Positions 19,391 to 33,488 of a stretch of 51,834 nucleotides of DNA are shown here, in pieces. The stretch is from Nitrospira sp. (GTDB taxonomy: Bacteria; Nitrospirota; Nitrospiria; Nitrospirales; Nitrospiraceae). Under the pieces are notes generated by a model. The model searched no databases. It worked only from the letters and a program-made list of their open reading frames with translations, and was not told the origin of the DNA. The stretch lies in NCBI GenBank assembly GCA_024331085.1, contig JANDJG010000006.1, positions 1 through 51,834 of the forward strand. Direction: 5' to 3'. Both the position numbers and the translations under genes were made by a program. Position 1 is the first letter of the stretch; each line of letters opens with the position of its first letter.

Positions 19391-20248
19391 TCATCGGACG
19401 ACAAGGACCGAACACGAGGCATGTTGCACGACCCGAGTCGAAACGCTGCCGAGCAACGCGCGGCCGATCGCGCCGAGCCCCTTGGCGCCGGTCACGATCA
19501 AATCGGCCTTCCAGCGTTTTGCCTGCGTGAGAATCTCGCTGGCCGGCTTCCCCAATCGCATCGCTTCCTCCACCTGAAACCCGGCCTTCGCCACCTTCTC
19601 CTCATACCGCTGTGCCAACAACTTGCCGGCCTCGCGCAGCTCCGGATACTTGAGAAACGGCATCACGTGGGTGACGATCACCGCCACCGGTTCCTGCTCG
19701 GGACCGTCGGGCGTGGGGTTGAGGTGCCGCAGCAAAAACTTCACCGCCTTCTCCGACGCCGACGATCCGTCGACGGCCAGTAAAATCCGCCGCACGGGGC
19801 GGGGCGCTTCCTTCACGACCAAGACGGAACAGGGCGCGTGATGGATCGCGTGATTCGACACGCTGCCGAGCATGAAGCGATCCAGCGCGTCGAGCCCCCG
19901 CGAGCCGATGGACAGCAACTGCACGCCGCGTCCGGCCTGTTTCATGATCGTCTCCGCCACGGCGCCGCGATCCACGATCACGGTTCCTTTGAGCCCCGAC
20001 TCCTTGAGCCAAGCCTCCGCCTCCTGCTTCGTGCCTCGGGCATGCTCCTCCAGCCGTTTCACTTCGGCCTGAATGTATCGCTCCGTTCCCACAATGACGG
20101 GCTGCACCATGAAGGGCGCGCGCAACCCCGCGACGTCGACGACGTGCAGCACTCGAATCGTCGGCTTGACGGCAAACGGAATCTGCGCCGACCACTCGAG
20201 CGCCCATCGACCGAACTTCGACCCATCCGTCGCCGCCAAAATTTTCAT
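19391..20248 (-). CDS. Tandem universal stress protein (two UspA domains)
   Basis: 285 residues from ATG 20248, which follows AAAGGATAAAGG. Domain 1 begins MKILAATDGSKFGRWALEWS and ends GSRGLDALDRFMLGSVSNHA / APCSVLVVK. Domain 2 begins RRILLAVDGSSASEKAVKFL and ends VTGAKGLGAIGRALLGSVST / ASCSVLVVR. The G-2x-G-9x-G(S/T) ATP-binding pattern is present in both. USPs modulate survival under energy limitation, hypoxia or oxidative stress. It follows the PFK gene by 29 bp, so the two are cotranscribed. Last gene of a seven-gene run that may start at the sigma-54-like site near 25300. Confidence 0.93.
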   Translation of the reverse strand: MKILAATDGSKFGRWALEWSAQIPFAVKPTIRVLHVVDVAGLRAPFMVQPVIVGTERYIQAEVKRLEEHARGTKQEAEAWLKESGLKGTVIVDRGAVAETIMKQAGRGVQLLSIGSRGLDALDRFMLGSVSNHAIHHAPCSVLVVKEAPRPVRRILLAVDGSSASEKAVKFLLRHLNPTPDGPEQEPVAVIVTHVMPFLKYPELREAGKLLAQRYEEKVAKAGFQVEEAMRLGKPASEILTQAKRWKADLIVTGAKGLGAIGRALLGSVSTRVVQHASCSVLVVR

Positions 20249-20277
20249 GCCTTTATCCTTTCTGCATCCCTTGTCGT

Positions 20278-21525
20278 TCAAACCGTCCAGGCGAACCGAT
20301 CCTTGAACGTATCGACGGACAGACCGGTGATGGCCGCATAGCGGCCAAGCGTCTGCGGATTATCCAGATCATCCGCCTTCAGTCGAATCATATATTGCCG
20401 GGCGATCCGGTACGACGGCGAGTCGATATCGACCATTCGGACCTTGGTCCGTCCCGTGGCGGCATCGACCATGTCCTTGAACGGAATCGGCACGAACCGG
20501 CCGTTTTGAATTGATACCATCGCCGACGTGCCGCCGTCGAGCAGATATTGCGCCGCGCAATAGCCGAGATCGCGCGTATATTCGATGTCATAGGGAATCG
20601 GATCGGCGCATCGAAGCTCATAGCCCACGTTCTTCGCCACGAGCGTCAGAGACAGTCCCATCGCCTTGAGCTGCTTCGTCAGCTCCCGCCGTAACACATC
20701 CCCGATGTCCACCTCGCTCAACCGCAGATGGCCGTGTTCATCGCGCTCGACATAGTCCAGCCCTCCGAGATCACGGGGATCGAGGATCTCGATCACTCCC
20801 TCGGCCAATACGGCGACGCCGTCCGCCCGCCCCTGTTCCATTCGCTTCACCATGGCCCCCAGCAGAACATCGACGACTTTCCGCAAGCGAACCGGCCGTT
20901 CCCGAAACTCCTCCGGAATGATCGTCACGGTGGCCCCGGCCGCCTTCCCGATCCCCAAGGCCAGATGGCCCGCCTTGCGCCCCATCGTGACCACCAGGTA
21001 CCAGCGCGCGGTGGTGCGGGCGTCGACCATGAGGTTTTTGACGATTTCGACCCCGACATGACGGGCCGTCTGAAACCCGAAGGTGGGAATGCCGTAGGGG
21101 AGATCCAGATCATTGTCGATCGTCTTCGGCACGTGAACGACCTGAAGGCGGCCGACCGCCCGCTCCTCCACCTTCATGGCCGAATACGCCGTGTCATCTC
21201 CTCCGATCGTCACCAGCCGCGTGACGCCCAGTCCCGACAACGCGAACAGAACGTTGTCCAAGCGATCCGACGATTTTGTCGGATTCGCCCGCGACGTCCC
21301 CAGATAAGACCCTCCTTGAAAATGAATCCGGCTGACCTCCTCGATCGAAAGAGGCCTCACCTGTCCGGTGCTTCCCTCCATGAGCCACTTGAATCCGTCC
21401 AGAAAACCGATCACGTCGTCTCCACCGAGAATGCCGCGGATCGTCGCGGCGCTGATGACGCTGTTGATCCCGGGCGCCGGCCCCCCTCCGACCAGAATTC
21501 CCATCACGGTCCGCTTTGAAGCCAT
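20278..21525 (-). CDS. pfp: 6-phosphofructokinase, pyrophosphate-dependent type
   Basis: 415 residues; ATG 21525 is preferred because GGAGG lies 7 nt upstream (GTG 21531 and ATG 21528 are alternatives). Phosphofructokinase motifs: GGGPAPGINSVI near residue 13, IGGDDTAYSA (108-111) and PKTIDNDLDLPYG (133-139). In this superfamily GGDD in place of GGDG, together with PKTIDND in place of PGTIDND, indicates PPi as phosphoryl donor. Such an enzyme saves ATP and is reversible, fitting glycolysis or gluconeogenesis under energy stress. Neighbours are USPs, which supports that role. Donor specificity is inferred from residues only. Confidence 0.92.
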   Translation of the reverse strand: MASKRTVMGILVGGGPAPGINSVISAATIRGILGGDDVIGFLDGFKWLMEGSTGQVRPLSIEEVSRIHFQGGSYLGTSRANPTKSSDRLDNVLFALSGLGVTRLVTIGGDDTAYSAMKVEERAVGRLQVVHVPKTIDNDLDLPYGIPTFGFQTARHVGVEIVKNLMVDARTTARWYLVVTMGRKAGHLALGIGKAAGATVTIIPEEFRERPVRLRKVVDVLLGAMVKRMEQGRADGVAVLAEGVIEILDPRDLGGLDYVERDEHGHLRLSEVDIGDVLRRELTKQLKAMGLSLTLVAKNVGYELRCADPIPYDIEYTRDLGYCAAQYLLDGGTSAMVSIQNGRFVPIPFKDMVDAATGRTKVRMVDIDSPSYRIARQYMIRLKADDLDNPQTLGRYAAITGLSVDTFKDRFAWTV

Positions 21526-21650
21526 CATCACCCTCCTTCCATCCCGCGTCCGCCCGACTCTCTCCCAGCCCCTCTCATGGGGATCCGCGACACGATCGCG
21601 TCGTTCAATGAAAGACTCTCGACATCGGCCCCGATCGGTGATCGGCCAGG

Positions 21651-23036
21651 CTACTCGGCAGGCGCCTCATCCAAACCGACGTGGGCTCGAAGACGATTGT
21701 ACTCGAAAGCGGGCAGGCCCGTTCGCCGACGGCCCGGATCGTGCGCGGCCATTTCATCGATCAGGGCGCCGACCGTTTTGCGCATCAACGGGCTCTCGGC
21801 GGCGTGGCGAGGCGTTCGGCCGCCGAGCGCAACGTGCGGCTGATCCGCCCATTCCAAATAGGCCTTCTCCAAAAACCGAGCCAGCAGGGCGCGATCTTCT
21901 TCCGGCGTCACCACCACGGCCGGCGGATCACCGGTCGTCAGGTCGGCCACCGACAGTTTTCGCGCCGGCGGCTCAACCGTCTCGCCGCGAAAGTGCAGGG
22001 AAAAGCCCAAGGCGGCCGCCAGTTCATGTTTGATCCGATCAAGCCGCTCAGGGCCGTCGCATTCCACGATCAACTGGCTGGACGTCAACGTCAGCCTCGC
22101 CACGATCTCCATTCCGGCTCCGGTCTCGACTCGCTGAACCCACACGGAGGCCGGCGGCGGACCGGAACCGGCACTCTCGCCCGCCGATCGACGGGAGGAT
22201 TGTTCGGGCTCCAACTCTTTCATGGCCGACAATTGGTCGGCAAACACCCGACGATCATGGTGGTCGTAGAGAGCCACGGCGTAGAGATACGGTCGACCGT
22301 CCGAGCCACGATAGCGGATGTGGACGACGGCGTCCACCAGCGCGTCAAGACGCAACTGCGCGAACGCCCAGAGCAGCATATAGCCGTATCGTTTGGCGAA
22401 TTCCCTCCATTCTCCGAGCGTAAAGGACCCGGTCTCAATCTCCAGCTCACGGCGCCATTCGGCGACCGTCTCGATCAACGCCGCGGCATCTTCAGGAGAG
22501 AGAAGCAACCCGCATCCGCCCCATATGGCGTCGGATGATCCCTCACCCGGCTGGCTGATGACGCGGGTAAGGATTCCGGACCCGGGCGGCGCATTTTTGA
22601 TGAAATCCCCTCCGGGCAGATGAACCGTCGCTCCATCGCCGAGAGACCGCGCCGTCACACGCGCAGAGTCCGACGAGACCAACTCGAACACGTCCATGCG
22701 GGAATGTTTCAATGGATCGAGCCACGCCCGCTCCTCGTCGGGAACATGTTCGGTGACGACGTCTCGCAACTGTTCGATGAGGCTCAACTGTCCGTCTTCG
22801 GGGTAAAAATCGCAGATCATGAACAGACCGGCCAGCTCGGTCTCCTGCGCCAGGGGCATCATGACGCCGCTCATGCCTTCTCCGATGTACGGCTTGAGCG
22901 CCCGCGCCAACGCCAGTTCACGTTGAAGGGAAAAACCCGGCTTGAGCGACAGCGCGTCAAGCCGCGCCAGCACCGAGACCAAGGACGGAGGAAGCGGAAC
23001 AAAGAACCCCGCCGCCCGCTCACTCCCGAGCTTCAT
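21651..23036 (-). CDS. Hypothetical protein, 461 aa, possible DUF2384-like tail
   Basis: Cytosolic protein without signal peptide. The main body is not one I recognise: SLQRELALARALKPYIGEGM, DALVDAVVHIRYRGSDGRPY and a charged linker EPEQSSRRSAGESAGSG. A segment near residue 340 (RLTLTSSQLIVECDGPERLD) looks like the 'region of substrate for DUF' seen with zinc-finger or SEC-C-like proteins. The last 75 residues (FLEKAYLEWADQPHVALGGR, TPRHAAESPLMRKTVGALID) resemble the Xre/MbcA/ParS (DUF2384) antitoxin fold. The ATG overlaps the end of the DUF2934 gene by 17 bp and has GGAAG 6 nt upstream, so the genes are coupled. Confidence 0.75.
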   Translation of the reverse strand: MKLGSERAAGFFVPLPPSLVSVLARLDALSLKPGFSLQRELALARALKPYIGEGMSGVMMPLAQETELAGLFMICDFYPEDGQLSLIEQLRDVVTEHVPDEERAWLDPLKHSRMDVFELVSSDSARVTARSLGDGATVHLPGGDFIKNAPPGSGILTRVISQPGEGSSDAIWGGCGLLLSPEDAAALIETVAEWRRELEIETGSFTLGEWREFAKRYGYMLLWAFAQLRLDALVDAVVHIRYRGSDGRPYLYAVALYDHHDRRVFADQLSAMKELEPEQSSRRSAGESAGSGPPPASVWVQRVETGAGMEIVARLTLTSSQLIVECDGPERLDRIKHELAAALGFSLHFRGETVEPPARKLSVADLTTGDPPAVVVTPEEDRALLARFLEKAYLEWADQPHVALGGRTPRHAAESPLMRKTVGALIDEMAAHDPGRRRTGLPAFEYNRLRAHVGLDEAPAE

Positions 23037-23250
23037 GGATTTCTTCCATCACGATGGCTTCCGCGTCGAACCAATCGCGGAGGTCATTGCCATCCTGGCG
23101 CCCCCGCTGCTCCCATAATTCGTAAGCCTTTTTCGCGATTCGCTCCCACATCCCGTCCGGCAATTCGATCGGCTTATTCGAAACGGCGGCGGCAACGGCT
23201 GCCGATGACCGCCCTTTCGAAGGACCGGTTTTCTTTGTCTTCGCCCGCAT
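23020..23250 (-). CDS. DUF2934 family protein
   Basis: 76 residues from ATG 23250 (CAGGAG 7 nt upstream); the ORF-track start at 23277 adds nine atypical residues. A basic, low-complexity N-terminal part (MRAKTKKTGPSKGRSSAAVA) leads to the DUF2934 core: RIAKKAYELWEQRGRQDGND followed by LRDWFDAEAIVMEEI. DUF2934 proteins are small, function unknown, and often encoded in stress-gene clusters. It is the fourth gene of the USP-cupredoxin-USP run, 27 bp after the USP and overlapping the next gene. Confidence 0.88.
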   Translation of the reverse strand: MRAKTKKTGPSKGRSSAAVAAAVSNKPIELPDGMWERIAKKAYELWEQRGRQDGNDLRDWFDAEAIVMEEIHEARE

Positions 23251-23277
23251 GACACACTCCTGGGTTTCGGTTGACAA

Positions 23278-24225
23278 TCACTGATCGGCAGGCAAGGCCG
23301 ACAGCACACGACGTTGGCTCGGTCGAAATTTTGGGCTGCGCACCATCAGAACGGGGCGGGGGGCCTTCCGCAGCACGGATTCGGCCACGCTGCCGTACAA
23401 GACATGCGACAGGCCCCGCCGCCCGTGCGTCCCCATGACGATCAGATCGATCGGCAGGGTCCGCGCCGCCTCAAGAATCGAATCGTTAGGAAGCCCTCCC
23501 CGTATCAAGCATTCACAGGGTACCCCCGCGGCATTCACCGCGCCGGCGATCTCGGCAAGCCGCTTCTCGACCGCTTCCCGGCGCCGTCTCGCGTCCGAGT
23601 GGACCAGCGTAAAATCCAGTCCGTACGAAACCGGCTCCAAAACATGGAGCACCGTGACGGACGCGCGCCCCCGCCTGGCCGCCTCAATCCCATATTCCAG
23701 CGCGTCAAGCGAGCAATCGGAAAAATCCACCGGAATCAGCAGTTTCTTGAGCGCAGGCCGAGCTTGCCGCTCACCGGCCCGTTCGGTTTCCGACCGCTCG
23801 GCCCGAACGGCCAACACCGGGCATGGCGACGTCCGAATCACGCGCTCGGCCGTACTGCCCAGCAAGACGTGTTCAAGCCCGCTCTTTCCCGCCGTGCCGA
23901 CCACGATGAGATCCACCTTCTCCGCCTCAGCCGCGGCCACGATTTCCTTGCTGGGGATGCCTCTGGCAAGACGCGACCGAACGACGATTCCCCGCTCCTC
24001 AACGCGCCCCTTGGCGGCGTCCAAATCCTGTGTAGCCTGTTTCATCAACTCGTTCAAGTACAATTGGTTCACGGGGTAGTCCGGGTTCAACCCCGGATCG
24101 AATTCCAAGACGGTCATGATCGTCAGCTCGGCTCCCCACGTTTCGGCCAGCGAACAGGCATACGCCTCCGCTCGCTCCGCGTGAGCCGAAAAGTCCGTCG
24201 CCAGCAGAATGTGTTCGACGTTCAT
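23278..24225 (-). CDS. Tandem universal stress protein
   Basis: 315 residues from ATG 24225. Domain 1 starts MNVEHILLATDFSAHAERAE and closes VVGTAGKSGLEHVLLGSTAE / SPCPVLAVR. Domain 2 starts KKLLIPVDFSDCSLDALEYG and closes VMGTHGRRGLSHVLYGSVAE / APRPVLMVR. Both halves have the G-2x-G-9x-G(S) nucleotide-binding signature. A charged linker (RSETERAGERQARP) joins the domains and a basic tail ends the protein. It begins 65 bp after the cupredoxin gene; the ORF-track start at 24351 would overlap that gene and is not used. Confidence 0.92.
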   Translation of the reverse strand: MNVEHILLATDFSAHAERAEAYACSLAETWGAELTIMTVLEFDPGLNPDYPVNQLYLNELMKQATQDLDAAKGRVEERGIVVRSRLARGIPSKEIVAAAEAEKVDLIVVGTAGKSGLEHVLLGSTAERVIRTSPCPVLAVRAERSETERAGERQARPALKKLLIPVDFSDCSLDALEYGIEAARRGRASVTVLHVLEPVSYGLDFTLVHSDARRRREAVEKRLAEIAGAVNAAGVPCECLIRGGLPNDSILEAARTLPIDLIVMGTHGRRGLSHVLYGSVAESVLRKAPRPVLMVRSPKFRPSQRRVLSALPADQ

Positions 24226-24290
24226 GGCCTGACTCTGTACCAGAACGATCCGAAGAGCCGCCTCTCCTTCATGATCCTGCCTCCCTTCAA

Positions 24291-24746
24291 TTAGACGGCT
24301 TCCGTGCTCAAGATCAACAATTCTCCGGTCATGGTCGGGTGAAGCGAACAACGGAACTCGTGTTTTCCCGGACGGGACAGATCAAACCGCACGGTCGCAC
24401 CGCGATGTGGATCAAGAAAGACCCCGCCCAACCCTCGTCCGTACACGATCACCCCGTTCTGTTCGATCTGCGTAGAAAGCCCCTCGAACATCATTGAGCC
24501 GAAATCGTGCCGTTCCGCATCTTCGTTCCGCACCTTGATCACCGTCGGGAGTCCCAGACGCAACGCCCCCTGCTTGGTCCTGAACTTGTAGTCCTTGATG
24601 GTCACTTCCACCACCTGTTCCGGTTCGGACAGCGCAAGCTTTCCCGACACCTGCGTGCTCCCTGACGGACCGGGAAACCAGACCATCAGACCGGCCAGAC
24701 CGGCGATTATGACCCCCGTCCACCAGCGAGCCCATTGCTTGCTCAT
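24291..24746 (-). CDS. Membrane-anchored cupredoxin
   Basis: Blue-copper-like protein of 151 residues, anchored by an N-terminal segment (GVIIAGLAGLMVWFPG) with the fold outside the cytoplasm. Type-1 copper ligands are recognisable: His in AERHDFGS and the Cys-His-Met set in EFRCSLHPTMTGEL, the C(x)nH(x)nM pattern of plastocyanin-like folds. Strands such as VVEVTIKDYKFRTKQGALRL and ATVRFDLSRPGKHEF support the fold. Likely an electron carrier or copper-storage protein. GGGAGAG precedes the ATG. It is between two USP genes, 15 bp after the first, and belongs to the same operon. Confidence 0.88.
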   Translation of the reverse strand: MSKQWARWWTGVIIAGLAGLMVWFPGPSGSTQVSGKLALSEPEQVVEVTIKDYKFRTKQGALRLGLPTVIKVRNEDAERHDFGSMMFEGLSTQIEQNGVIVYGRGLGGVFLDPHRGATVRFDLSRPGKHEFRCSLHPTMTGELLILSTEAV

Positions 24747-24761
24747 GATCTCTCCCTTCGT

Positions 24762-25262
24762 TTAAGCGGAAACCGGCTGACCGCCGGTGGCCGGCAGAGG
24801 AACGGTCAACACGGGGCAACCGGCGGTACGGACGACCTTTTCCGCTGTGCTGCCGAAAAAGATCTTGTCCACGCTGCCCGCTCGCCCGCCGTAACTGCCC
24901 ATCACGATCAGATCCACGCGCCCCGTACGAGCGGCCTTGGCGATCTCGACGAACGGGGACCCTTCGACGATGGTGCGGGCGAGCGCCACCCCCTTGGCCT
25001 CTTTCGATTCCAACAACCGGCGCGCCTTCAGACGGGCATGATGACGCAGCCTCCGTCGTTGAGCCGTCGCATCGGACGGGACGGCCACGAGTCCTAGTCG
25101 GTTGAACGCCGCCAAAGTTCCCGTATCGATGACGTGCAAGACCGTCAGTTCGGCTCCGCATACACGCGCCATCTCGCAGGCGACTCGAAAGGCCTCGTCC
25201 GAACAGGGCGAGAAATCGACCGGCACGAGAATCTTTTTGAAGAGACCGGCTTGTTGAACCAT
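24762..25262 (-). CDS. Universal stress protein (single domain)
   Basis: 166 residues from ATG 25262, with GGAGGA 6 nt upstream. UspA fold: KKILVPVDFSPCSDEAFRVA at the start, VDLIVMGSYGGRAGSVDKIF and FGSTAEKVVRTAGCPVLTVP at the end, so the nucleotide-binding glycine pattern is present. First gene of the minus-strand run ending at 19391. A -24/-12 type promoter lies 26-41 bp upstream. The open frame extends to 25382, but the extension has no ribosome site and would include the promoter, so the internal ATG is preferred. Confidence 0.92.
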   Translation of the reverse strand: MVQQAGLFKKILVPVDFSPCSDEAFRVACEMARVCGAELTVLHVIDTGTLAAFNRLGLVAVPSDATAQRRRLRHHARLKARRLLESKEAKGVALARTIVEGSPFVEIAKAARTGRVDLIVMGSYGGRAGSVDKIFFGSTAEKVVRTAGCPVLTVPLPATGGQPVSA

Positions 25263-25287: not shown

Positions 25288-25303
25288 AGCAAGGGCGGTG
25301 CCA
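25288..25303 (-). promoter_or_regulatory. Sigma-54 (-24/-12) promoter of the minus-strand USP operon
   Basis: On the minus strand TGGCAC-CGCCC-TTGCT: the invariant GG and GC are exactly 10 bp apart, and the -24 and -12 boxes match the RpoN consensus TGGCAC-N5-TTGCW. Transcription would start near 25277, giving a leader of about 15 nt with the GGAGGA ribosome site inside it. Confidence 0.65.
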
Positions 25304-25435
25304 CTTGAAGAACCTGTATCACATGGGCGATAGTGGCCGCACGATTCAGGGGAATCTCGGCCGGAACTCCGTCTTCTTTCACTTGAGCAAGGGTGGCGAG
25401 GGTAAGTGGGCTGCCGCCCTCGATCGTCGCAGAAG

Positions 25436-25483
25436 GGGGCTCCTTGCTACAGATGCAATCTTATCGATGTAGCAGAAGGCCCC
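25436..25483. promoter_or_regulatory. Inverted repeat midway between the divergent sigma-54 sites
   Basis: TTGCTACA (25444-25451) and TGTAGCA (25468-25474) form a 7-bp inverted repeat around 16 bp; flanking GGGGC and GGCCCC extend it imperfectly. It lies about 140-160 bp from each sigma-54-like box, where an enhancer-binding protein would bind. It could instead be an RNA hairpin. The rest of the 460-bp gap (25263-25721) holds no gene that I can support. Confidence 0.5.
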
Positions 25484-25597
25484 ACTGATGAAACGACTTT
25501 TGGGGTGACGAAAGGCTCAAGGTGGAACTTCTCTTGTCTGTTCACCCTTTTCACCCTTTGCTTTTTCCCACTGACGCCGGACGCAGCCGTGTGGAAA

Positions 25598-25613
25598 CGG
25601 CATCGGATTTGCT
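25598..25613 (+). promoter_or_regulatory. Sigma-54-like promoter of the plus-strand USP operon
   Basis: CGGCAT-CGGAT-TTGCT: GG and GC are 10 bp apart and TTGCT is consensus, but the -24 box departs at its first and last positions. It lies 109 bp before the USP start codon. Weaker than the minus-strand site. Confidence 0.45.
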
Positions 25614-25721
25614 GGGTCGGATTTACGGGATGGGAGCACGTCGCCGTTGTGGACGGCGATTCAACCGATGAGACAATGAAACCCATCATTTCGGTGCTTC
25701 CGCAAAAGGAAGGGGACATTC

Positions 25722-26585
25722 ATGAAACTTTTGCTCGCAGTCGACGGTTCAGACCACTCATATGAAGCGGTGCGCGCGCTGAAGTATTTGAGTCGCGCGG
25801 AAGAGCTGCATATCGTGCATGTCTTGGACGTCCCGACGCCGGCCTATCCCTCCATGATCCCTGAAGTGACGCGAGAGTTCTATGAGACAGCCGAGCGCAC
25901 CATGCGGGAAGAAGGCACGAGGCTGTTGGAGCGGATCGTGTCGCTGCTCCCGATGGAAGTCGGCCCGGTGACCAAGCATCTGGTCGTCGGATCTCCGGCG
26001 GATCAAATTATTGCGATGGCCGAACAATTCAAGGTGGACCTCGTGCTGCTCGGAACGCGCGGCTTCGGGCCGATCAAAGAACGGCTGTTGGGCAGCGTGG
26101 CCCATCGCGTGCTGACGTTCGCTCCGAGCGCCAAGCTGATTCTTCGTGGTCCGCTGAAAGCGTTGGACAAAGTCCTGCTCCCGCTGCGGGGCGCCGATGA
26201 CGCGGAACATGCGCTCCGATTTCTCCAACAACGGCCGTTCCGAAATCCACCTATGCTCACTCTCTTCACCGTCTTGCCCCATACCAAGCCGCCATGGCCG
26301 GTCAATGACGCCGCCGCCGAACAGATGGAAGCCCAGGCGCTCCGCGAGGCCGAGGCCTTCCTCAATGATACGGCGGCTAAATTGCCGGCTCTCGGCCATG
26401 AGACCCGGGTCGTCGCTTCGTTGGGCACTCCGGTCGAAGGGATTCTGAAAGAAGCCGGGGCCTGGCAGCCCGACCTCATTCTCATGGGATCCCGCGGGCG
26501 CAAAGGCGTCTCGCGGCTCGTGCTGGGCAGTGTCTCTCACGCGTTGTTGCACCAAGGAGCCTATCCATTGATGATCTTCAGTTGA
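25722..26585 (+). CDS. Tandem universal stress protein
   Basis: 287 residues. Domain 1: MKLLLAVDGSDHSYEAVRAL to LLGTRGFGPIKERLLGSVAH. Domain 2: DKVLLPLRGADDAEHALRFL to LMGSRGRKGVSRLVLGSVSH and YPLMIFS. The nucleotide-binding glycine pattern is clear in both, although the second domain lacks the usual VDGS at its start. AAAAGGAAGGGG precedes the ATG. First gene of a plus-strand run (USP, FmdB-like, cytochrome c, pncA, pncB, hydrolase) with gaps of no more than 35 bp or overlaps, so one transcript is likely. Confidence 0.93.
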   Translation: MKLLLAVDGSDHSYEAVRALKYLSRAEELHIVHVLDVPTPAYPSMIPEVTREFYETAERTMREEGTRLLERIVSLLPMEVGPVTKHLVVGSPADQIIAMAEQFKVDLVLLGTRGFGPIKERLLGSVAHRVLTFAPSAKLILRGPLKALDKVLLPLRGADDAEHALRFLQQRPFRNPPMLTLFTVLPHTKPPWPVNDAAAEQMEAQALREAEAFLNDTAAKLPALGHETRVVASLGTPVEGILKEAGAWQPDLILMGSRGRKGVSRLVLGSVSHALLHQGAYPLMIFS

Positions 26586-26598
26586 GAGGGAACCGGCC

Positions 26599-26763
26599 AT
26601 GCCCATGTATGAGTACAAGTGTCTCGATTGCGGAAAGGAATCGCTCCTGGTCGTGACGCTCAAGGCACATGAACAGGGAGACGTGGCCTGTCCGGCCTGC
26701 GGGAGCAAAAGGCTTGAGCAACGCTTCAGTCCGTTCATCGCGCACACGAGCAAGAAAAGTTAG
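26599..26763 (+). CDS. FmdB-type zinc-ribbon protein
   Basis: 54 residues, too short for the ORF track. MPMYEYKCLDCGKESLLVVT carries the first CxxC, and ACPACGSKRLEQRFSPFI the second, giving the four-Cys zinc ribbon of the FmdB/CxxC-CxxC-SSSS family. Members are putative regulators or chaperones of unknown function. The start lies 13 bp after the USP stop, with GAGGG ahead, and the stop lies 9 bp before the cytochrome start, so it is inside the operon. Confidence 0.88.
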   Translation: MPMYEYKCLDCGKESLLVVTLKAHEQGDVACPACGSKRLEQRFSPFIAHTSKKS

Positions 26764-26772
26764 GGGGCCTTC

Positions 26773-27153
26773 GTGCGCAGAAACAGAGAGGTCGCCGCGC
26801 TCATCGGTCTTGTGTCGCTCTTGGTTCTGATCGACTCGGCGATACCGGCCGGTCTTTCCGCGCAGGAGTATCCTCCCGATCCGGAACGAGGGAAAGCGAT
26901 TTATGCGCGCCACTGTCGCTCTTGCCACGGAGACAAGGGCGAGGGGAACGGGCCGTCGGCGGAGACCTTGCCCCTTCCGCCAGCCGATTTTCGCCATGTT
27001 CGGTCGATCCTCAAATCGGATGAGGACCTGTTGCGGGTGATCGAACATGGCGTCGTCTTCAGTCCGATGCACGCCTGGCGAGGACGGCTGGCCGATGAAG
27101 AAATGCAGGATGTGTTGGCCTACATTCGCCTGCTCTCACAATCCAGCCCGTGA
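26773..27153 (+). CDS. Periplasmic c-type cytochrome (monohaem)
   Basis: 126 residues starting with GTG. Signal peptide or anchor AALIGLVSLLVLIDSAIPAG ends near LSAQ. One haem-attachment motif, CRSCH, follows YPPDPERGKAIYARH; the distal ligand is probably Met in FSPMHAWRGRL. The fold matches class I cytochrome c (GKAIYARHC...GDKGEGNGPS...LADEEMQDVLAYIRLL). It is likely an electron carrier in the periplasm. The companion cupredoxin in the divergent operon suggests a shared electron-transfer role. It overlaps the ORF-track start of the next gene but not its true start. Confidence 0.9.
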   Translation: MRRNREVAALIGLVSLLVLIDSAIPAGLSAQEYPPDPERGKAIYARHCRSCHGDKGEGNGPSAETLPLPPADFRHVRSILKSDEDLLRVIEHGVVFSPMHAWRGRLADEEMQDVLAYIRLLSQSSP

Positions 27154-27188
27154 CATCCGGTTCGGCGCCGAGGACGACACCATCGACC

Positions 27189-27782
27189 ATGAACCTCCTG
27201 GTTGAAACACTGGACCCCCACGACGCGCTGATCCTCATCGACATCCAGAATGACTTTCTTCCCGGCGGTCCCCTCGGTGTCGCCGGCAGTGCAACCCTTC
27301 TCCCGGTGTGGGCGGAATATCTCCACCGCTTTGTGGCGCGGAGACTCTCCGTTTTTTTCACGCGCGATTGGCATCCTCAGGACCACTGCTCTTTCCAACA
27401 ACAAGGCGGCCCTTGGCCGCCTCACTGTCTGGCTGGGTCGCATGGCGCGCTGCCTCCCGACCACTTTCCAATTCCAGCGTCAGCCGTAATCATTTACAAA
27501 GGCATCGATCCGGACCACGACGCCTACTCCGGCTTTCAAGGAACGGCCCTCCACCGCCACCTTCAAGCCCTTGATGTCCGACGGCTCTTCATCGGCGGGC
27601 TGGCGACCGACTATTGCGTGCTGAACACCGTCAAGGATGCCCTCTCCCTCGGCTATGCCGTCCGTTTGCTGACGGACGCGATCAAGGCGGTCGACGTCCG
27701 GCCCGATGACGGCAAACGGGCCGAGCACGAGATGATCCGCCTGGGCGCTGTCCCAATCCGATTGGAGGATTTGGCCCGATGA
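27189..27782 (+). CDS. pncA: Nicotinamidase (pyrazinamidase)
   Basis: Hydrolyses nicotinamide to nicotinate for NAD salvage. 197 residues from ATG 27189, which begins MNLLVETLDPHDALILIDIQ; the ORF-track GTG at 27150 is rejected. Catalytic triad of the isochorismatase fold: D18 in LIDIQNDF, Lys in VIIYKGIDPDHDAYSGF and Cys in GLATDYCVLNT. The metal-site residues are in TRDWHPQDHCSF. Its stop overlaps the pncB start (ATGA), giving translational coupling. Together with pncB it forms a complete nicotinamide-to-nicotinate mononucleotide step. Confidence 0.95.
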   Translation: MNLLVETLDPHDALILIDIQNDFLPGGPLGVAGSATLLPVWAEYLHRFVARRLSVFFTRDWHPQDHCSFQQQGGPWPPHCLAGSHGALPPDHFPIPASAVIIYKGIDPDHDAYSGFQGTALHRHLQALDVRRLFIGGLATDYCVLNTVKDALSLGYAVRLLTDAIKAVDVRPDDGKRAEHEMIRLGAVPIRLEDLAR

Positions 27783-29134
27783 ACCCATCCCGAAGCGCCC
27801 TGCTCACCGACCTCTATGAACTCACCATGGCCCAGACGTACCTGGAACAGGACATGACCGAACCGGCCGTGTTTGAGTTGTTCGTCCGCAAACTGTCGCC
27901 CCATCGCAATTTCCTGATCGCCGCCGGCCTTGAACAGGTGTTGGACTTTCTCACCGGTTTGCGCGTCACGCAAGAAGAATTGGCGTGGCTTGAGGAGACC
28001 AGGTTGTTCAAGCCCCGCCTGCTGCACTTTTTGGAAACCCTGCGGTTCACCGGCGACGTGGCGGCCATGCCGGAGGGGACGCCGTTTTTCCCACACGAGC
28101 CGATTCTCCGCGTGGTGGCACCCCTGCCGATCGCGCAACTTGTCGAAAGCCGTGTCATGAATCTGCTGCACGTTCAGACCATGATCGCTTCCAAGGCGGC
28201 TCGGTCGGTCCTGGTGGCCAGGGGGAAACCCTTGATCGATTTCGGGCTGAGGCGGGCGCACGGCGCGGAGGCGGGGCTCCTCGCAGCGCGGGCCAGTTAT
28301 TTGGCTGGTTTTGCCGGCAGCGCCACCGTGTTGGCCGGCATGGCCTATGACATTCCCATCTATGGCACGATGGCCCATTCGTTCGTCCAGGCCCATCGCG
28401 ACGAACGGCAGGCCTTCGAGCACTTCGCCCAAGCGCAGCCGGACAACGCGATCTTTTTGATCGACACGTACGATACGGAGGCGGCCGCGCGACTCGTCGT
28501 CTCGATGGCCCCTTCGCTTAAGGCCAAGGGCATCACGGTCAAGGGTGTGCGATTAGACAGCGGCGATCTGGCCGCCCATGCACGGGCGGTTCGCCGAATT
28601 CTGGACGAGGGAGAGTTGTCTCACGCTCAGATTCTCGCAAGCGGCAATCTCGATGAATATCGGGTGCAATCACTGGTTGAAAGCGGGGCCCCGATCGACA
28701 GCTTCGCCGTCGGCACGGCCATGACCACGTCCGCCGATGCCCCGTCGTTGGATTGCGCGTACAAGCTGCAAGAATATGCCGGGCGTCCCTGTCGCAAGCG
28801 ATCGGAGGGCAAGGCGACATGGCCCGGTCGCAAACAGGTCTATCGTTCGCATACGGATGACGGCCTGCTCGACTACGACGTCGTCACCACACTGGAGGAC
28901 ATTCAAACGGGACTTCCTCTTCTCCAAGATGTGATGAAAGGCGGGAAACGTCTCGCCCCCTCCCCCAGCTTGCATGAGGTGCGCCGGTACGCCATGGACC
29001 GACTGGCCCAGCTTCCTCCTCCGTTACGCAACCTGGAGACGGCCCCACCCCATCCTGTTCGCATTGCCCCCGCATTACAAGCTCTGGCCCGGACAGTGGA
29101 CCAGGGTCTCGCCCACCAACAAGAAAGTCCTTGA
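27779..29134 (+). CDS. pncB: Nicotinate phosphoribosyltransferase
   Basis: Converts nicotinate and PRPP to nicotinate mononucleotide with ATP; 451 residues, a normal length. Motifs: LLTDLYELTMAQTYLEQDM at the start, FELFVRKLSPHRNFLIAAGL, DFGLRRAHGAEAGLLAARAS (active-site Arg/His), GTMAHSFVQAHRDERQAFEH, VKGVRLDSGDLAAHARAVR and ILASGNLDEYRVQSLVESGA. The C-terminal part contains the phosphate-binding AVGTAMTTSADAPSLDCAYK. ATGA overlap with pncA, and GAAGGAG for the next gene lies at its end, so the three genes are coupled. Placement in a USP operon suggests NAD recycling during stress. Confidence 0.95.
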   Translation: MNPSRSALLTDLYELTMAQTYLEQDMTEPAVFELFVRKLSPHRNFLIAAGLEQVLDFLTGLRVTQEELAWLEETRLFKPRLLHFLETLRFTGDVAAMPEGTPFFPHEPILRVVAPLPIAQLVESRVMNLLHVQTMIASKAARSVLVARGKPLIDFGLRRAHGAEAGLLAARASYLAGFAGSATVLAGMAYDIPIYGTMAHSFVQAHRDERQAFEHFAQAQPDNAIFLIDTYDTEAAARLVVSMAPSLKAKGITVKGVRLDSGDLAAHARAVRRILDEGELSHAQILASGNLDEYRVQSLVESGAPIDSFAVGTAMTTSADAPSLDCAYKLQEYAGRPCRKRSEGKATWPGRKQVYRSHTDDGLLDYDVVTTLEDIQTGLPLLQDVMKGGKRLAPSPSLHEVRRYAMDRLAQLPPPLRNLETAPPHPVRIAPALQALARTVDQGLAHQQESP

Positions 29135-29145
29135 AGGAGCAAGCC

Positions 29146-29799
29146 ATGACTGCTGTGCCTGAACATCACGTCTCAATCGCGAAAGGGTCGGTCGTCTTGG
29201 AGGGGGTGCTCGGCCTGCCGGCCGGCTCGGAGGGAGCGGTCATCTTCGCACATGGCAGCGGCAGCGGCCGATTCAGTCCGCGCAACAACTTCGTGGCCCA
29301 CCATCTTCAGCACCAGGGGCTCGCCACCCTGCTCCTTGATCTGCTCACGGAAGAGGAAGCGAACGACCGGAGCAAGGTCTTCGACATTGACCTTTTAGCG
29401 GATCGGCTTCTATTGGCCAAGGCATGGCTCGAATCGGACCAACGAACGAGGCATCTCCGGATCGGCTACTTCGGCGCCAGCACCGGCGCCGGCGCGGCAC
29501 TGCAAGCCGCCGCGCGACAGCCGTCGAACATTCACGCCGTCGTCTCAAGAGGCGGACGGCCGGACCTGGCCGAACCCTATCTCCCTCGCGTGACGGCCCC
29601 CACGCTCCTGATCGTCGGCGGTTATGATTTCCCCGTCATTGAACTGAACAGGGCTGCCTATGATGCGCTGACCTGCGAGAAGAAGCTGGTCATCATTCCC
29701 GGCGCCACTCATCTATTCGAGGAGCCGGGCACGTTAGAGCAGGTGGCGGAACAGGCAGGGAGTTGGTTTTTCCGGCACCTCCACTCATCCTCCCAGTGA
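29146..29799 (+). CDS. Alpha/beta hydrolase, dienelactone-hydrolase-like
   Basis: 217 residues from ATG 29146 (GAAGGAG 8 nt upstream); the TTG at 29131 overlaps pncB and is less likely. Alpha/beta-hydrolase features: AVIFAHGSGSGRFSPRNNFV, LRIGYFGASTGAGAALQAAA (here GASTG replaces the usual GxSxG, with Ser as nucleophile), PTLLIVGGYDFPVIELNRAA with the acid, and IIPGATHLFEEPGTLEQVAE with His. Substrate unknown. The 3' 90 bp exist again at 30577-30667, so the gene end was duplicated when the toxin-antitoxin segment entered. Same operon as pncB. Confidence 0.9.
   Translation: MTAVPEHHVSIAKGSVVLEGVLGLPAGSEGAVIFAHGSGSGRFSPRNNFVAHHLQHQGLATLLLDLLTEEEANDRSKVFDIDLLADRLLLAKAWLESDQRTRHLRIGYFGASTGAGAALQAAARQPSNIHAVVSRGGRPDLAEPYLPRVTAPTLLIVGGYDFPVIELNRAAYDALTCEKKLVIIPGATHLFEEPGTLEQVAEQAGSWFFRHLHSSSQ
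29690..29780 (+). repeat. Hydrolase 3'-end direct repeat, left copy
   Basis: 91 bp, 82 of 91 identical by hand count to 30577-30667; the last 40 bp match perfectly. It lies within the alpha/beta hydrolase gene and forms the left border of the toxin-antitoxin segment. Confidence 0.9.
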
Positions 29800-29838: not shown

Positions 29839-30135
29839 TCACCTCCGCTCACATCGTTCAATCAACAGCTCTCTCAACTGCTCATAGACATCCCGTCGGG
29901 GGCCGATGAAGACAATATCGAGACAGCCTTCTTCATCATGAATCCGATAGATGATCCGATACGTCCGGACCCGATAAGACCGAAGACCCGCCAGCTCATA
30001 CTGAAGCACATGACCGGCAAGAGGATTCGCCACAAGATCTTTGACGCCTTGCTTGATCTCCCCCTTGACTTGAGGATGGAGCTTCCGAATTCGTTCGGCC
30101 GCTTCCCTGGTATAGCGTGCTCGATATCCTTTCAC
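29839..30135 (-). CDS. RelE/ParE-family toxin
   Basis: 98 residues. KGYRARYTREAAERIRKLHP, IKQGVKDLVANPLAGHVLQY, ELAGLRSYRVRTYRIIYRIH and DIVFIGPRRDVYEQL match the RelE/ParE toxin fold with its basic surface. Many members cleave ribosome-bound mRNA. The antitoxin gene lies 8 bp upstream on the same strand. The pair sits between the two copies of the hydrolase repeat, so it appears to be a separate, newly acquired unit. Confidence 0.92.
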   Translation of the reverse strand: MKGYRARYTREAAERIRKLHPQVKGEIKQGVKDLVANPLAGHVLQYELAGLRSYRVRTYRIIYRIHDEEGCLDIVFIGPRRDVYEQLRELLIERCERR

Positions 30136-30143
30136 AACGTTTC

Positions 30144-30410
30144 TCAGCCAAAGACCGCCTCATGGGAGACCCACTGTTCTTTCTCCGCCTGTTTCAAAGC
30201 TCGACGAAGTCCTCGCATCGTCTTCTGATCGCTGAGAATCTCGATCGTCTCCATCAGTCCCTCGAACTGATCCATACTCAGCAGGACTGCCGAGGGAACA
30301 CCGTCGCGCGTGATCGCCACAACCTCCTGTTTGTGTTTCATACGTCGGATCAAATCCAACAGCTTATCTTTGGCCTCACTCACCGAAACAAACTCGTCGA
30401 CTTGTGGCAT
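30144..30410 (-). CDS. Phd/YefM-family antitoxin
   Basis: 88 residues. MPQVDEFVSVSEAKDKLLDL is the Phd/YefM DNA-binding N-terminus, and RRMKHKQEVVAITRDGVPSA, VLLSMDQFEGLMETIEIL complete the fold; the C-terminus (ALKQAEKEQWVSHEAVFG) is the part expected to neutralise the toxin. GAGAGGGG precedes the ATG. It is the first gene of the module, so toxin and antitoxin are cotranscribed with antitoxin first, as usual for this class; autoregulation by the Phd domain is likely. Confidence 0.92.
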   Translation of the reverse strand: MPQVDEFVSVSEAKDKLLDLIRRMKHKQEVVAITRDGVPSAVLLSMDQFEGLMETIEILSDQKTMRGLRRALKQAEKEQWVSHEAVFG

Positions 30411-32508: not shown

Positions 32509-32864
32509 CCGGAAATCCCGGAACTTGGAAACCGATCACCGACTATCAGCTCCATACTTGATCTCCTGTTCCAACCTGCCAGACAGGTCGGCGCCGAGTA
32601 TGACACGTTCGCCTGTCCTCCACAGCCTCTTTTTTCACCTCGCAGCTTCCAAATCTTTTCCAATCCTTCTTTTTCCAGCCCTTCTTTGTCCTGCCTTGCG
32701 ACCCTTTCAACATTTGTCGCGTTCGGCCACATCCATCGAATAGTCACTGTGGTGAAAAGCGTCAGATTGACCGTTTCGCTGTCCTTTCAGGAACCGAACC
32801 TGTCAAGCACCCGAAACACTGCCCGTTATTTCCTCAACTCACAATGAAGGAAACATCATGTCAT

Positions 32865-32880
32865 CGGCACATCGTTTGCT
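32865..32880 (+). promoter_or_regulatory. Sigma-54-like promoter of the hpf/lon operon
   Basis: CGGCAC-ATCGT-TTGCT: correct 10-bp GG-GC spacing, with only the first base of -24 off consensus. It lies 51 bp before the HPF start codon. The rest of the 460-bp divergent gap (32471-32930) shows a 5-bp inverted repeat ACCTG-CCAGA-CAGGT and pyrimidine-rich sequence, and no supportable gene. Confidence 0.58.
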
Positions 32881-32930
32881 CGTTGTTCTGGGTGGAGAAA
32901 CGGACGTCTCACATTGATGAGGGAGGGACC

Positions 32931-33488
32931 ATGCAATTGGAAATCGAAAGCCGCAATGTGGCGATGACTCCTCGCTGGAAAACCGAGATCGAAGCCCGCA
33001 TGCAAGACTTGCAACGGGGACACGACGATCTGATTCACGGCCGGGTGACATTGACCAAAAATCGACACCACAAGAAACTGGCCAATGTGGCCGAGGCGCT
33101 CGTGGTGGTGTCCCTGCCCGGTCGTCATACCATCACCTCTCGCAAGGAGGAAAAGACGTTTGAAGAGGCGATCCGAAGCGCCTTCGCCGCCGTCGAGACG
33201 GAATTACGAAAGTACCGGGAGAAACGGGCCCGCAAAGAGGTGCGGCTGCCGCCGCTTCCTCCCTATCACGGCGTGATCTGCAAGCTCTTTCCGAAAGAAC
33301 GGTACGGCTTCATCCTGAAGGACGGAGGCGGAGAGGTCTATTTTCACGCCAACGCGCTGCAAAACCTCGCCTTTGACGAAGTGGAGGATGGGATGGAAGT
33401 CCTGTTCAACCTGGAAGAGGGTGACAAGGGGCCACAGGCCACGGTGGTCACGACTCCGGACCCCGTTGCATCAAAAGCTCTTTCATGA
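32931..33488 (+). CDS. HPF/RaiA ribosome-hibernation domain fused to a cold-shock domain
   Basis: 185 residues from ATG 32931, preceded by GGGAGG. Residues 1-100 match the HPF/YfiA S30AE fold (MQLEIESRNVAMTPRWKTEI, IHGRVTLTKNRHHKKLANVA, GRHTITSRKEEKTFEEAIRS). Residues 110-180 match a cold-shock domain with its RNA-binding strands: GVICKLFPKERYGFILKDGG, EVYFHANALQNLAFDEVEDG and GPQATVVTTPDP. This architecture suggests ribosome silencing together with RNA binding, in place of the S30AE C-terminal dimerisation domain of long HPF. It is followed after 7 bp by the Lon-type protease gene, and the sigma-54-like site lies upstream. Confidence 0.9.
   Translation: MQLEIESRNVAMTPRWKTEIEARMQDLQRGHDDLIHGRVTLTKNRHHKKLANVAEALVVVSLPGRHTITSRKEEKTFEEAIRSAFAAVETELRKYREKRARKEVRLPPLPPYHGVICKLFPKERYGFILKDGGGEVYFHANALQNLAFDEVEDGMEVLFNLEEGDKGPQATVVTTPDPVASKALS

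Follow-up and report, generated by a model that had tools for sequence, protein, structure and literature searches.

Divergent predicted sigma-54 promoters flank a conserved enhancer-like element in a universal stress protein island of Nitrospira

Genome and gene content of the island

The window, i.e., the whole stretch of 51,834 nucleotides that was analyzed, is contig 59 of a Nitrospira-type draft genome (G000) of 2.72 Mb, which is 84% complete and 5% contaminated. The genome contains rpoN (PF04552 match at G000:C166; E value, 2.9e-56), which is also found in two complete relatives, and about a dozen genes for sigma-54 activators. Near-duplicate activator genes on separate contigs (8/53 and 144/5) suggest that the draft contains a mixture of strains.

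Two sets of genes diverge from a shared intergenic gap, and each is predicted to form an operon over its full length. The left set, on the minus strand, begins with a universal stress protein (USP) gene (24762 to 25262; Pfam Usp), whose start is backed by a Shine-Dalgarno sequence (GAGGAGG) and by relatives. It continues with genes for a cupredoxin (24291 to 24746), a tandem USP (23278 to 24228), a DUF2934 protein (23020 to 23277), a 461-amino-acid protein with no Pfam match (21651 to 23036), a phosphofructokinase-family protein (20278 to 21531), and a second tandem USP (19391 to 20281). The order of the cupredoxin, DUF2934, phosphofructokinase, and both tandem USP genes is conserved, and the 461-amino-acid protein gene is a conserved neighbor, separated by 120 bp from the phosphofructokinase gene. 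Assignment of the phosphofructokinase to the PPi type follows the reading in the preliminary description only.

The right set, on the plus strand, encodes a tandem USP (25722 to 26585), a 54-amino-acid FmdB-like zinc ribbon protein named from its sequence (26599 to 26763), a cytochrome c (26773 to 27153), an isochorismatase-family nicotinamidase (pncA; 27150 to 27782), a nicotinate phosphoribosyltransferase (pncB; 27779 to 29134), and an alpha/beta hydrolase (29131 to 29799). Gene order is conserved for the tandem USP, cytochrome c, pncA, pncB, and hydrolase genes, and the order of both arms is widely kept among relatives. In many relatives (e.g., L280 and L302), the first right-hand gene encodes a conserved 30-amino-acid single-helix membrane peptide (MTRTQWLLGAVGLGLAIVIYLIFFCP-DCQ; MTRTQWLLG...); no such gene was seen on the right side of the gap in this genome.

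Directly after the right operon, at 29839 to 30410 on the minus strand, two small genes resemble those of a RelE-type toxin and a Phd-type antitoxin, judged by sequence appearance only. A gene at 32844 to 33488 encodes a ribosome hibernation S30EA domain fused with a cold shock domain (Pfam) and adjoins a gene for a LonB-like protease.

Promoter boxes and central element of the divergent gap

The gap contains two outward-facing -24/-12 boxes and, midway between them, an inverted repeat, all three as reported in the preliminary description. The left box, TGGCAC-CGCCC-TTGCT (TGGCACCGCCCTTGCT; 25303 to 25288, minus strand), has no mismatch to TGGCAC-N5-TTGCT, and its predicted transcription start (25277) lies approximately 15 nt upstream of the USP start codon (ATG at 25262). 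The right box, CGGCAT-CGGAT-TTGCT (CGGCATCGGATTTGCT; 25598 to 25613, plus strand), has two mismatches with the correct GG/GC spacing; its predicted start is near 25624, giving a leader of approximately 98 nt. Within this predicted leader, at 25641 to 25659, lies a perfect 7-bp inverted repeat (TCGCCGT-TGTGG-ACGGCGA). Both boxes are predicted sigma-54 promoters, to which sigma-54 would bind. Neither a sigma-70 promoter nor a terminator was found in the divergent gap.

Within this genome, the strength of the individual elements differs. Among 3,000 dinucleotide shuffles of the gap, a match of left-box quality never occurred, one of right-box quality occurred in 6%, and 53% contained some 7+7 inverted repeat whose spacer was ≤30 bp. 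Because of these rates, the left box alone stands out in the single genome, and the right box and the palindrome are weak by themselves. A genome-wide search found four copies of the exact left-box string in 2.72 Mb (reversed control, 0). One of the other three precedes a flagellar rod-type gene, a classic kind of sigma-54 target, and two lie 140 to 260 nt upstream of reading frames.

Comparison with relatives settles that the elements are real. Orthologues of the left USP occur in 71 of 79 genomes of the genus, and 33 of the first 34 orthologous gaps examined had a box in each direction, with the inverted repeat placed mid-gap by alignment. When the set was enlarged to 75 distinct orthologous gaps, with a box counted at a score of at least 13 of 15, the left box was present in 74 and the right box in 70, with one further right box near the threshold. 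The GG at -24 and the GC at -12 are nearly invariant, at fixed spacing, in both directions. The right-box consensus across the gaps of relatives is CGGCATTGGACTTGCT, and the form with two departures from the sigma-54 consensus is itself conserved. Of the 73 matches to the repeat in the 75-gap set, 72 have a spacer of precisely 16 bp. The preliminary description had named loss of the boxes and palindrome from relatives that keep the gene order as evidence against its proposal; this was looked for, and the elements proved to be retained.

Sequence identity is concentrated in the same elements. Among 38 representative gaps (those <75% alike), pairwise identity was 93.5% and 92.5% in the box columns versus 29 to 31% in their flanks, and 96% in the inner arms of the repeat versus 34% in the flanks, with 76% in the outer arms and 43% in the N16 spacer. 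Because regular expressions and best matches were used to locate the elements, the percentages are to some extent affected by selection. The shuffles demonstrate, however, that such selection could not by itself have given this result.

The inverted repeat, TGCTACA-N16-TGTAGCA (25445 to 25474), extends outward in this genome to GGGG-N5-TGCTACA-N16-TGTAGCA-N5-CCCC, with arms GGGGCTCCTTGCTACA-N16-TGTAGCAGAAGGCCCC. The whole element spans 50 bp (25435 to 25484) and comprises two 17-bp NtrC-like sites, GGGGGCTCCTTGCTACA (25435 to 25451) and TGTAGCAGAAGGCCCCA (25468 to 25484), whose separation of 33 bp corresponds to approximately three helical turns. The right site fits TGNNGC-N5-GCNNCA, as does the right arm across genomes (TGTAGCAGAAGGCgcCA), and its GCNNCA outer half is present in 59 of 69 gaps. 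In several genomes (the L031 group), the right inner half reads TGGGGC instead of TGTAGC, which preserves TGNNGC. The left arm across genomes has GCNNCA inside and a weaker, G-rich outer half that fits TGNNGC poorly, its first base being A, G, or C. The palindrome described earlier is better interpreted as the inner, mutually facing halves of two putative dimer sites than as one single site.

The position of the element suits an NtrC-type enhancer, the dyad sites of which are expected roughly 70 to 200 bp before a transcription start. In this genome, it lies approximately 182 bp from the predicted left start and approximately 165 bp from the predicted right start; in relatives, the distance from its center to the start is approximately 156 bp on the left and mostly 150 to 170 bp on the right. 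The predicted left leader is mostly 14 to 23 nt in the orthologous gaps and includes a Shine-Dalgarno sequence. Helical phasing between enhancer and promoter is moderate on the left (R of about 0.6), where it is dominated by one common distance, and low on the right.

The boxes follow the genes. Three USP copies without the right operon (L061, L122, and L124) have kept the enhancer and left box and lack the right box, and in L185, a genome that has lost the left USP, the right box persists together with a near match to the enhancer. One relative (G059; L131 and L332) carries two tandem copies, approximately 1.6 kb apart, of the left USP-cupredoxin segment together with its enhancer and both boxes. 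In addition, a reduced relative (G071; 2.0 Mb, 99% complete) has four sigma-54-activator-like genes, yet rpoN, the left USP, and the enhancer are not detectable in it.

Distribution of the putative enhancer and search for an activator

Of 59 genomes of the genus, 46 contain the inner repeat by itself (reversed control, no matches) and 54 contain a relaxed form of it. A combined pattern, in which the enhancer is joined to a box at 91 to 121 bp, was scanned over 85,462 species genomes (264 Gb) and gave 65 matching stretches. All but one have titles naming Nitrospira or Nitrospirae/Nitrospiraceae; the exception is a metagenome-assembled genome titled Nitrosospira, which carries the Nitrospira island and is probably mislabeled. 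The USP island is present in 57 of the stretches and a dodecin gene in the remaining 8. The combination of enhancer and box is therefore characteristic of a single lineage and of a small number of operons.

The enhancer lies beside a sigma-54 box in 15 of 16 dodecin promoters (Pfam Dodecin). In relatives, the enhancer also stands before an Hsp20 gene and before a divergent operon for cytochrome c and cupredoxin; at these genes and at dodecin, it is roughly 105 to 145 bp from the box. The preliminary description had proposed a sigma-54-controlled stress island; this proposal is supported, but the putative regulon reaches beyond the island to the dodecin, cytochrome c/cupredoxin, and Hsp20 genes. 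On this sequence evidence, the enhancer-promoter system is best read as belonging to a Nitrospira-specific regulon.

In a second type of enhancer, the halves read TGCGACA/TGTCGCA or TGCTACA/TGTCGCA around the same N16 spacer. It precedes TolC-type efflux genes and FtsH-like genes and is separated by 105 to 126 bp from a box of roughly the form YGGCTCCCTCYTTGCA. It was seen near coordinate 3000 in L172, L174, L175, L176 (at 49), L177, and L178 and also in L171 and L186. This type is probably the site of a paralogous sigma-54 activator; the element with TGCGACA/TGTCGCA halves was accordingly set apart from the island enhancer as probably belonging to another regulator.

We consider it very probable that the gap is a bidirectional enhancer-dependent region, with one NtrC-type enhancer and two divergent sigma-54 promoters. 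This agrees with the preliminary description and draws on conservation, enhancer spacing, the presence of rpoN, and recurrence of the element at other boxes. That one activator serves both promoters is suggested by the single shared element. Two independent sigma-54 promoters could instead share the gap, the central element serving only one of them or binding a repressor. The loci at which the element accompanies just one box (L061, L122, L124, and L185) are compatible with such independence, as is the distance to the right promoter, which is more variable than that on the left and has low helical phasing. However, a single element and both boxes are retained wherever both operons are present, and at the single-promoter dodecin operons the element pairs with a sigma-54 box 105 to 145 bp away, as activator sites do, whereas a repressor would be expected to bind more often over the promoter itself. 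We regard this alternative as improbable. A third reading is that the boxes match a short consensus by chance and that the palindrome is an ordinary one. In one genome, the shuffle frequencies for the right box (6%) and the 7+7 repeat (53%) would allow this, but it is refuted by conservation in 75 distinct gaps and by the finding that, among 85,462 genomes, the combined pattern occurs only at homologous sites.

Contexts of up to 20 kb around the island and around the dodecin operon contained no activator gene, and comparison of presence and absence across genomes gave only a weak association. The candidate that emerged, more probably wrong than right but compatible with the bidirectional enhancer, is a two-component regulator at G000:C109, a possible redox sensor acting with a PAS-rich kinase. 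It has a receiver domain, a sigma-54 AAA+ domain, a C-X4-C-X10-C-X2-C linker, and a Fis helix-turn-helix; the kinase gene upstream has PAS-type sensing domains, as read from sequence. The four-cysteine linker recalls NifA. Regulator and left USP are jointly absent from G071, G072, and G074 and otherwise near universal (both in 65 of 79 genomes, USP only in 6, regulator only in 5, neither in 3), and absence from both G071 and G074 is seen for few of the other distinct activators encoded here. However, the association is weak and could be explained by genome reduction or missing contigs; rpoN also went undetected in G071, and the regulator has neither a convincing enhancer near its own gene nor linkage to the island. 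At 84% completeness, the assembly may also lack the true activator.

Proposed mechanism and comparison with known systems

In the proposed mechanism, sigma-54 RNA polymerase would occupy both outward-facing boxes, and an NtrC-type activator would bind as two dimers approximately three helical turns apart on 25435 to 25484 and then oligomerize. By looping the DNA and spending ATP, the activator would open one or both promoters, possibly simultaneously. The left operon (USP, cupredoxin, USP, DUF2934, 461-amino-acid protein, phosphofructokinase, and USP) and the right operon (USP, zinc ribbon, cytochrome c, pncA, pncB, and hydrolase) would thereby be started. The dodecin, cytochrome c/cupredoxin, and Hsp20 genes of relatives may be driven by the same activator or a close paralogue. 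The gene content (USPs, phosphofructokinase, NAD salvage, and small electron carriers) suggests survival at low energy. The trigger may plausibly be a shortage of oxygen or energy, and the label “energy stress” is tentative.

Nitrospira are the most widespread nitrite oxidizers and include comammox organisms, and the regulation of their survival under oxygen or substrate shortage is poorly understood. No description of a sigma-54 stress regulon in Nitrospira was found in open-licence papers. The island points to an undescribed Nitrospira-wide stress program built on an enhancer-promoter mechanism already known for sigma-54. Furthermore, the conserved enhancer defines a concrete set of putatively coregulated genes and offers a DNA bait for the regulator.

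Links between USPs and either sigma-54 or low oxygen have been reported elsewhere. In Planctomycetia, predicted sigma-54 promoters are enriched before UspA-family genes, according to the accessible text of a 2025 sigma-54 survey (PMC12316311). Unlike the Nitrospira island, no shared enhancer or divergent layout is described in that text, and Nitrospir- is not mentioned in the main text of the survey (PMC12316311). In the N. marina proteome, USPs are among the strongest risers at about 5.6 µM O2, all four adjoin induced operons, and the authors suggest a regulatory role for USPs (PMC8115632). Neither a promoter nor a sigma factor is named for these clusters, and the word “sigma” does not occur in the main text (PMC8115632). 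This rise is the best outside hint that low oxygen may be the trigger.

In mechanism, the proposed system resembles the enteric nitrogen system. In the glnA enhancer, strong NtrC sites are spaced by approximately three helical turns. The glnALG/NtrC enhancer of enteric bacteria consists of tandem NtrC-dimer sites approximately 90 to 140 bp upstream of a sigma-54 promoter and acts by looping (PMC7408454). The Nitrospira element likewise comprises two NtrC-like sites approximately three helical turns apart, but its half-sites (TGTAGC/GCNNCA) differ from the NtrC consensus. Also unlike glnALG, one Nitrospira element lies between two divergent promoters, and its putative targets are stress genes rather than genes of nitrogen assimilation.

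The gene content itself recalls the DosR dormancy regulon of Mycobacterium, which includes USPs, a phosphofructokinase, the NAD salvage gene pncB, and a small heat shock protein and is controlled by a hypoxia-sensing two-component system. DosR is a LuxR-type regulator that works with ordinary sigma factors. Literature joining DosR with pncB and USPs was not found among open-licence papers. A Nitrospira-specific sigma-54 activator, possibly redox sensing through a cysteine cluster, might run a dormancy-like regulon (USPs, phosphofructokinase, NAD salvage, electron carriers, dodecin, and Hsp20) when oxygen or energy drops and so form a functional parallel of DosR on sigma-54; we regard this as a real possibility that falls somewhat short of probable. 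The two systems hold a similar basket of genes, but the Nitrospira operons have sigma-54 boxes, and the analogy is one of content only.
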